The notes under the pieces: model-generated
What the model was told of the DNA's origin: nothing
The model's input: only the letters and a program-made list of their open reading frames with translations
Databases searched by the model: none
Origin: Dissulfuribacter thermophilus
GTDB taxonomy: Bacteria > Desulfobacterota > Dissulfuribacteria > Dissulfuribacterales > Dissulfuribacteraceae
Reading direction: 5' to 3'
DNA: 64,000 bases
Assembly (NCBI RefSeq): GCF_001687335.1
Contig: NZ_MAGO01000001.1
Span: 310,001-374,000, forward strand
Shown: in pieces, positions 62,687 through 64,000 of the stretch
Layout of the letters: every line of letters starts with the position of its first letter
Numbering within the stretch: the stretch's first letter is position 1
Position numbers and translations under genes: made by a program

Positions 62687-62756
62687 GTGGCCTATACTTA
62701 GCCTGGTCTCGCACGCCTTACTTCAATTTCGTGGCCGATCGGATACATTGTGTGAT

Positions 62757-63377
62757 ATGAGGATATTAAGAGCCGATTTAGAGGTTTGTGCCTTTAAGAA
62801 TAAGCAGTTTCCAGAGAATGATCCAGGGGAGATCGCCTTTGCAGGGAGATCTAACGTTGGTAAATCCTCTCTTTTGAATAAAATTATGGGGCGGCGAAAA
62901 CTCGTAAAGGTCAGTAGTCGTCCAGGTTTTACCCAAAGCATAAATTTTTTCTCAGTCTCTGTAAGACAGGGGGATCAGGAAGGAAATGGTTATCTCGTAG
63001 ATCTTCCAGGCTATGGCTATGCAAAGGCTCCACGGTCTGTAATCAAGAGGTGGGAACGCCTTATAGGAGACTATTTTTCCTCTGGAAGAAGAATACTTGC
63101 GGTAGTCACAATCTTTGATATACGACGGACTCCGGATCATCTAGACCTTGAATTGGTGTCGTTTTTAAGGTTTCACTCTATTCCTATTGTTCCGGTATTC
63201 AATAAATGTGACAAGCTTAGTGGAAGCTCTCTTTTTAAGAGAACAAGGGACCTATGGGAGTCCCTTGGACGCTTCGGATTTGATGAATTCGACGACACCT
63301 CTGTCTTCTGCGTATCAGCAAGGACTGGTGCCGGAATTGAGAGGCTAAAACAAGAAATTTTTAGTTCATTTTTATAA
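62757..63377 (+). CDS. engB: EngB/YihA ribosome-biogenesis GTPase
   Basis: 206 residues. G1 is FAGRSNVGKSSLLN, G3 DLPGYGYAKAP, G4 FNKCDK, and G5 CVSARTGAG. It assists 50S subunit assembly. A GTG at 62748 is also in frame; ATG 62757 gives the usual start. It is convergent with the candidate selenoprotein gene, whose read-through stop is 20 bases away. Confidence 0.95.
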   Translation: MRILRADLEVCAFKNKQFPENDPGEIAFAGRSNVGKSSLLNKIMGRRKLVKVSSRPGFTQSINFFSVSVRQGDQEGNGYLVDLPGYGYAKAPRSVIKRWERLIGDYFSSGRRILAVVTIFDIRRTPDHLDLELVSFLRFHSIPIVPVFNKCDKLSGSSLFKRTRDLWESLGRFGFDEFDDTSVFCVSARTGAGIERLKQEIFSSFL

Positions 63378-63397: not shown

Positions 63398-63541
63398 TTA
63401 ATCTTTAGTCTTCTTTTTGGGTCGAGACCCGACCTCGCAGCTTGGTGCAGCTCATGTAGGCACCCCAAGGCGCGGAAGTACCCATTTATTTAGGGCAAAC
63501 CAGCCAACAATAATAAGAATCAGGGTCAAAATCTCGTCCAT
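63398..63541 (-). CDS. Candidate selenoprotein: 47-residue membrane protein with in-frame UGA
   Basis: On the minus strand, AAGGAG lies 6 bases before ATG 63541. The frame gives a single membrane span (MDEILTLILIIVGWFAL), then NKWVLPRLGVPT, an in-frame TGA (63454-63452), and 17 more residues to TAA 63400-63398. With selenocysteine at 30 the end reads UAAPSCEVGSRPKKKTKD, a U-x4-C motif with a basic cytoplasmic-type tail. A SECIS-like hairpin with loop GGUCU lies 17-32 bases after the UGA. Stopping at the UGA would leave a bare membrane peptide. I recall small proteins ending LGVPTC in related bacteria, but this was not checked. It follows a MerR-type regulator gene on the same strand after 93 bases. 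Confidence 0.7.
63420..63434 (-). promoter_or_regulatory. SECIS-like hairpin downstream of UGA 63454
   Basis: In RNA the 5-bp stem GGUCG/CGACC (63434-63430, 63424-63420) closes the loop GGUCU (63429-63425). The loop starts 23 bases after the UGA. The same GGUCU is part of the apical loop of the E. coli fdhF SECIS (from memory), where the GU contacts SelB. A second stem brackets the UGA itself (GGUGC/GCACC). Confidence 0.65.
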
Positions 63542-63634
63542 ATCAAGCTCCTTAATATTTGACTGCTTGTTACAATAATAACTTTGACCCCTGATTGCAA
63601 CTTTCAGGTGTCCGTCTGCCCCAAAATTTAGTGT

Positions 63635-64000
63635 TTAATGACCCCTTTCCTTGAAGAGGCCATATGCCTTATAGGCAGTGCAGGTCTTTCGTTTTTCCGT
63701 GGGACAATTTACGATATTCCAGCACCCAGTAAATTCTAGGAGCTTCTTGATCCCAGCGATGCTTATCCCCTGATCATGAATCATTGAACGAATACAGGTT
63801 ATCCATTGAAGATCATTGAGAGAAAAATAGCGTCTTCGACCTTTTCTGAGTGGTTTTATCAGACCTTCTTTTTCATATATCCTCAATGTTCTGGGATGAA
63901 CTTCCAGCATGTTAGAGGCCGTGCCTATTGTGAAGATTGGCTGGTCAGGATCAATTCCTTCAACTGCCTGCCAAATTCCAGCATCTTCGAGTTGTGGGCC
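63635..64000 (-). CDS. MerR/HspR-family transcriptional regulator (5' end outside window)
   Basis: 121 residues are visible and the frame runs off the right edge. The MerR-type helix-turn-helix reads PIFTIGTASNMLEVHPRTLR then YEKEGLIKPLRKGRRRYFSL, as in HspR, the repressor of heat-shock chaperone operons. The short C-terminal part has three cysteines (GCWNIVNCPTEKRKTC), which could sense redox state or bind a metal. The internal ATG 63910 is not the start because conserved residues precede it. The candidate selenoprotein gene follows after 93 bases on the same strand. Confidence 0.85.
   Translation of the reverse strand, partial: GPQLEDAGIWQAVEGIDPDQPIFTIGTASNMLEVHPRTLRIYEKEGLIKPLRKGRRRYFSLNDLQWITCIRSMIHDQGISIAGIKKLLEFTGCWNIVNCPTEKRKTCTAYKAYGLFKERGH

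Follow-up and report, generated by a model that had tools for sequence, protein, structure and literature searches.

Our comparative analyses indicate that a 47-residue protein encoded in the genome of Dissulfuribacter thermophilus is very probably a selenoprotein with selenocysteine (Sec) at codon 30, a conclusion reached from sequence alone and without any measurement of selenium incorporation, of the peptide or of its expression. The assignment is strongly supported by homology, conservation of the in-frame UGA, coding constraint beyond it, covariation in the hairpin that follows, the presence of the Sec machinery, and replacement of Sec by cysteine in genomes without selA. The protein probably represents an undescribed, multi-phylum family of mini membrane selenoproteins, nearly all with Sec, which has been missed by gene finders and by Cys-dependent screens, would serve on the cytoplasmic side of the membrane as a selenol/thiol redox element, and has a two-Sec form in one genus.

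The gene and its locus

The features of the locus are collected in Table 1, with coordinates in the window (the whole stretch of 64,000 nucleotides that was analysed, from contig NZ_MAGO01000001.1). With TGA read as U, the product has 47 residues (MDEILTLILIIVGWFALNKWVLPRLGVPTUAAPSCEVGSRPKKKTKD) and ends at a TAA; gene finders would end it at the UGA, which is very probably read through as Sec. An earlier note, made from the letters of the window, had described the Shine-Dalgarno sequence, the UGA at codon 30, the 17 sense codons between it and the TAA, the U-x4-C pair, the basic C-terminal tail, the hairpin, and the gap of 20 nt between the TAA of the read-through frame and the end of the convergent GTPase gene, and all of these elements were confirmed. 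The distance from the UGA to the hairpin loop is 22 nt. The same note had placed a Cys-rich, HspR-like MerR regulator next to the gene. The regulator is real (MerR_1, E 3.5e-18) and does resemble HspR, but at 68.6 bits it falls short of the NCBIfam HspR equivalog cut-off of 105.

Table 1. Features of the putative selenoprotein locus (window coordinates) and the loci of the two-Sec form
Feature	Position or locus	Strand	Basis
Putative selenoprotein gene, TGA read as Sec	63398..63541	-	ORF translation and homologues
Shine-Dalgarno AAGGAG, with the ATG (63541) 6 nt further on	63548..63553	-	sequence
Single predicted helix (membrane span), residues 2-25	63467..63538	-	AlphaFold2 and alignments
In-frame UGA, codon 30 (putative Sec)	63452..63454	-	homologue codon counts
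Cys35 codon, putative Sec partner (U-x4-C)	63437..63439	-	invariant in 49-row alignment
SECIS-type hairpin GGUCG-loop GGUCU-CGACC; 6 bp with a G-U pair	63420..63434	-	folding, family covariation, synonymous shuffles
MerR-family regulator gene, upstream, same strand; runs beyond the window end, 137 aa in total	63635..64000	-	MerR_1 match
Convergent GTP-binding protein gene, called engB in the earlier note; borders the locus, outside the system	62748..63377	+	sequence by eye
Two-Sec loci	L025-L029, L031-L033, L035		

Conservation of codon 30 and of the region beyond it

Among 101 distinct proteins of the family, the codon for residue 30 was TGA in 100 and TGC in one, while TAA and TAG were never found. 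This count leaves out L040, a TGC row that proved to be a chance motif in a mis-anchored row; the true TGC homologue is L115. As ordinary termination would permit TAA or TAG at this position, their absence argues that the UGA is not a plain stop. Six positions (18, 20, 23, 26, 30 and 35) do not vary across the 49 aligned rows, and the Cys at +5 is encoded equally by TGC and TGT (46 : 46), so that it is the residue, not the codon, that has been kept.

Over codons +1 to +5, single-base differences between similar pairs were synonymous in 1266 cases and non-synonymous in 415, where the full set of possible changes would give 955 : 3438. Constraint was lower over residues +6 to +11, which overlap the hairpin (631 : 807), and the closest next in-frame stop lies at least 13 codons after the UGA in all members compared. 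As the pairs are related and non-independent, these tables are descriptive and do not amount to a formal dN/dS analysis. On this comparison, the region from the UGA to the conserved Cys35 is under purifying selection, and the hairpin accounts for part of the conservation over residues 36-41.

The hairpin downstream of the UGA

Bacterial SECIS hairpins lie about 16-37 nt after the UGA and carry a G in the apical loop, and, according to the earlier note, the loop of E. coli fdhF is GGUCU. The window hairpin meets the spacing criterion, which is weak evidence at this locus alone, and taken by itself its folding is unexceptional (z = -0.10 for the 61-nt fold and -0.64 in the synonymous-codon shuffle). 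When the codons of 87 diverse members were shuffled synonymously, with the protein kept, the mean z was -1.40 (Stouffer -13.0); the control regions upstream and in the tail gave -0.21 and -0.30, respectively. The mean folding energy in 26-nt windows was -8.94 kcal/mol at +15 and -1.5 kcal/mol at +30, and in most members the apical loop starts ~17-24 nt past the UGA, at the same place in differing sequences.

In 22 sequences with the geometry of the window, 93.5% of the cells were paired and 26 cells had changed on both sides. The covariation score was 0.513 versus 0.241 in shuffled alignments; none of 500 shuffles reached the observed score, and slid registers all scored far lower. Relatedness inflates this shuffle test, the slid registers being less affected, and the 22 sequences were picked by lineage and spacing after many had already been seen to pair. 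The earlier note had proposed a SECIS-like hairpin after the UGA; it lies at 63434-63420 and gains support from the family-wide shuffles and covariation. The hairpin is exceptional as a feature of the family, not at this locus alone.

Distribution of the family and a two-Sec form

A search with the 47-residue query against 60 relatives gave E < 1e-4 in most, with one TGA inside each match. The 49-row profile matched 170 of 395 Desulfobacterota genomes, 39 of 343 from Planctomycetota and 27 of 296 from Spirochaetota; all Desulfobacterota matches listed, down to E 1.8e-9, contained an in-frame TGA, and a few of the matches in the other two phyla were weak. An alignment search of GTDB contigs yielded 80 named loci, most of them from Desulfobacterota, Planctomycetota, Spirochaetota and KSB1. 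A single contig labelled Chloroflexi was also among them; its sequence hardly differs from those of Desulfuromonadaceae members, and it may be mis-binned. Cultured carriers among these loci include Desulfacinum, Desulfuromusa kysingii and Desulforhabdus. Family members range from about 45 to 90 residues. No member was found in viral contigs with two patterns that read Sec as Cys, so that one of the two was weak for UGA forms.

Nine genomes of one genus, to which this form is confined in our sample, carry two in-frame TGAs (...PSU-GAP...PTU-DGPSC-SIG-x-QSKK), each followed by its own hairpin of about -7 to -11.5 kcal/mol. The first Sec of this form no longer has a Cys partner, which indicates that U-x4-C is not required at every Sec.

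Selenocysteine machinery and cysteine forms

The genome of D. thermophilus harbors selA (578.8 bits), selB (366.8 bits), a tRNA-Sec with anticodon UCA (73.5 bits) and selD (381 bits; G000:C10:23416-24339, L128). Its SelD is itself probably a selenoprotein, with one in-frame TGA in the gene. The earlier note had named three outcomes that would refute a selenoprotein, namely the absence of this machinery, the absence of homologues keeping Cys or UGA together with the tail, and homologues that all end at the UGA. None of them holds: the machinery is complete, the codon counts are joined by further Cys forms in Planctomycetota without selA, and conservation, purifying selection and hairpins go on past the UGA.

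These Cys forms, in which no stop interrupts the frame, were found in five well-scoring Planctomycetota genomes (G424, G740, G622, G679 and G608), with the sequences TCMGGSC (L163, the same locus as L115), TCLSGFC (L167), TCLSGMC (L169), TCLSGLC (L172) and TCMSGGC (L179). None of the five had selA over the cut-off, whereas 23 of the 26 UGA-form Planctomycetota genomes tested from the same family search did (Fisher p 0.0003), the exceptions being G564, G491 and G731. A further genome, G545, was assigned to neither group; it has selA, and its weak no-stop match (E 1.1e-4) leaves its membership doubtful. This comparison indicates that Sec was replaced by Cys where the machinery was lost. The Cys form at L115/L163 (L115 1436-1639) folds a 7-bp hairpin of the family type, GUGCGGU-GUC-ACCGCAC (-10.5 kcal/mol, equal in energy to that of the UGA form L165), and this hairpin, placed after a TGC in a genome without detectable selA, is likely a relic of Sec use. 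The idea that every Cys form keeps such a relic was not borne out: folding is weak or absent in L167, L172 and L179, and L169 takes up another fold. Because the hairpin is kept only in L115/L163, a recent change from Sec to Cys can be claimed for one of the five.

In Desulfobacterota, a count by hand gave selA in 163 of the 170 genomes with the family and in 192 of the 225 without it (Fisher p 0.0006), a comparison confounded by kinship and completeness. As selA is nearly universal in this phylum, co-distribution discriminates poorly there, and the informative contrast is that in Planctomycetota. The lack of selA over the cut-off in seven of the 170, as in the three UGA-form Planctomycetota, speaks against the assignment; missing assembly is a likely cause in draft genomes, yet one of the seven, G112, is rated 98% complete.

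The D. thermophilus genome also carries a second selB (285 bits; G000:C11:19880-21882; L002, L120) beside a tRNA-Sec-like gene, which ARAGORN calls as tRNA-Cys with anticodon GCA. This arrangement fits the known selC*/selB* pairs reviewed in PMC7609411.

Genomic neighborhood

In the window genome, the genes follow one another on the strand as an NrfD-family gene (beyond the window), the MerR gene and the selenoprotein gene, with the GTPase gene convergent; close by, a divergent set carries genes for an Fe-S protein, a cytochrome, a second NrfD-like and a second MerR-like protein. At loci of the order Dissulfuribacterales, to which the window belongs, the gene mostly follows cytochrome c7, NrfD or MerR genes. 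Across 109 loci, with some genomes represented by two records, the directly upstream gene on the same strand encodes cytochrome c7 in 17, a histidine kinase in 12 and MerR in nine, while 47 have none within 250 nt. In many Desulfuromonadales the gene lies behind a two-component pair of response regulator and histidine kinase, in many cases with an LTXXQ gene in divergent orientation, and ArsR-family and NikR genes come after it in Desulfomonile-type genomes (L055, L077, L106, L108, L116).

Regulation of the gene by its MerR neighbor, which the earlier note had considered possible, was not shown: the nine loci with MerR upstream all fall within Dissulfuribacterales, and the genes found nearby in other lineages are instead those of cytochromes, two-component systems, ArsR or NikR. 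From these counts, the MerR link appears to be local and not family-wide. The recurring theme among the neighbors is envelope redox or metal/stress regulation, with no universal partner, and as the neighbors vary by lineage, no single conserved operon reveals the function. The cluster that adjoins the gene at L193 (3627-9923) comprises genes for a PAS/sigma54-type regulator, an Fe-S protein, a cytochrome, two NrfD-like and two MerR-like proteins in divergent arms; the Fe-S protein is near the DsrO/TtrB models, below their cut-offs.

Proposed mechanism and alternative explanations

AlphaFold2 predicts one helix over residues 2-25 (mean pLDDT 95 for residues 1-10 and 89 for residues 11-20) and a tail of low confidence, and the alignments reveal a conserved collar at the helix end, N-[KR]-W-x-x-P-[KR]-x-G. 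Charge averages -0.87 across residues 1-4 and +1.98 directly after the helix, from which, by the positive-inside rule, we infer an N-out/C-in topology with Sec on the cytoplasmic side. In the proposed mechanism, SelB and tRNA-Sec(UCA), together with the hairpin that immediately follows the UGA, would insert Sec at residue 30. The product would be a single-pass inner-membrane mini-protein with an N-terminal helix and a basic collar, holding a U-x4-C redox pair directly inside the membrane and ending in a short, disordered, charged tail. We infer that U30 and C35 may form a reversible Se-S bond, and that such a membrane-tethered thiol/selenol element might protect or reduce envelope electron-transfer proteins under redox stress. 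This role is the weakest step of the proposal and can be advanced only tentatively.

Two other readings concern the decoding of the UGA, and both seem very improbable to us. The real product might be a membrane peptide of only 29 residues, terminated at the UGA, with the downstream frame incidental. TGA is indeed also an ordinary terminator in the family (31 of 102 rows), and it is established that under selenium shortage some product must end at a Sec UGA; nevertheless, a plain stop is at odds with the lack of TAA and TAG at codon 30 in the 101 proteins, the invariant Cys five residues past the UGA, the few non-synonymous changes in between, and the Cys forms, which read straight through. Alternatively, the UGA might be read as Cys through a tRNA-Cys of the selC* type and a dedicated SelB*. 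The second selB with its tRNA-Sec-like neighbor would provide for this, and some of the known pairs have a UCA anticodon (PMC7609411). However, the tRNA-Cys here has GCA and should not read UGA, the canonical tRNA-Sec has UCA, and the five Cys forms, in genomes without selA, use Cys codons.

The remaining alternatives accept a selenoprotein and differ on its role. Handling of metals or metalloids (e.g., binding of Hg, Cu, Ni or As) in place of thiol redox exchange is unlikely but deserves serious consideration, as a soft selenol adjoining a thiol suits thiophilic metals, NikR and ArsR genes lie nearby in some lineages, and the LTXXQ gene divergent from the two-component pair matches Metal_resist (E 8e-6, below the cut-off). 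It fits less well with the NrfD, Fe-S and cytochrome neighbors in Dissulfuribacterales, and the family conserves only one Cys besides Sec. These same neighbors raise the rather unlikely possibility that the protein is an accessory subunit of an NrfD, Fe-S and cytochrome c7 membrane complex, stabilized or assembled by Sec, given that in most Dissulfuribacterales loci the gene comes directly after cytochrome c7, NrfD or NrfD-MerR genes. As most loci outside this order lack NrfD, Fe-S and cytochrome genes, such a role could not be ancestral to the family as a whole.

Comparison with known systems

A Pfam scan of 49 members gave no family match over the curated cut-off. The best hit, Arabinose_trans (E 0.0052), was rejected as below the cut-off and probably due to membrane-helix composition. 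NCBIfam release 20 gave no credible match for 49, 21 and 9 aligned members, a PDB profile search gave a chance match only (E 0.67), and a literature motif search returned nothing relevant. As far as Table 1 of PMC13188914 (2026) represents that paper, its 119 prokaryotic families/subfamilies include no recognizable one-span T-U-x4-C protein, although, like the present family, they feature short redox motifs such as UxxC and some small hypothetical proteins. An earlier description elsewhere remains a real but modest chance, with supplements and some recent work outside the scope of our literature search. Cys forms are rare in this family, so that methods needing Cys homologues are weak here, and the deep-Sep paper states that its own method may fail to identify families without them correctly. 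The family provides a natural Sec/Cys contrast tied to the presence of selA, together with a two-Sec derivative, and its cultured carriers allow tests of selenium dependence.

The eukaryotic proteins SELENOK and SELENOS are small, cross the membrane once and carry Sec in a disordered tail at the C-terminus; in SELENOS a Cys lies close to it. The present family would work like them, as a small single-pass membrane protein with Sec in its tail, but its Sec lies beside the membrane collar and not at the very end, and the Pfam scan of 49 members, which presumably included SELENOK and SELENOS models, matched neither. With SECIS-dependent selenoproteins such as formate dehydrogenase and SelD, it shares the in-frame UGA, a hairpin downstream within the coding region, the SelA/SelB/tRNA-Sec/SelD machinery, and Cys where selA is absent; unlike them, it has no catalytic domain or thioredoxin-like fold, only one helix and a tail. 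Taken together, the insertion mechanism is already known, and what is new is a family of one-span mini-proteins, nearly all with Sec, together with a two-Sec derivative.
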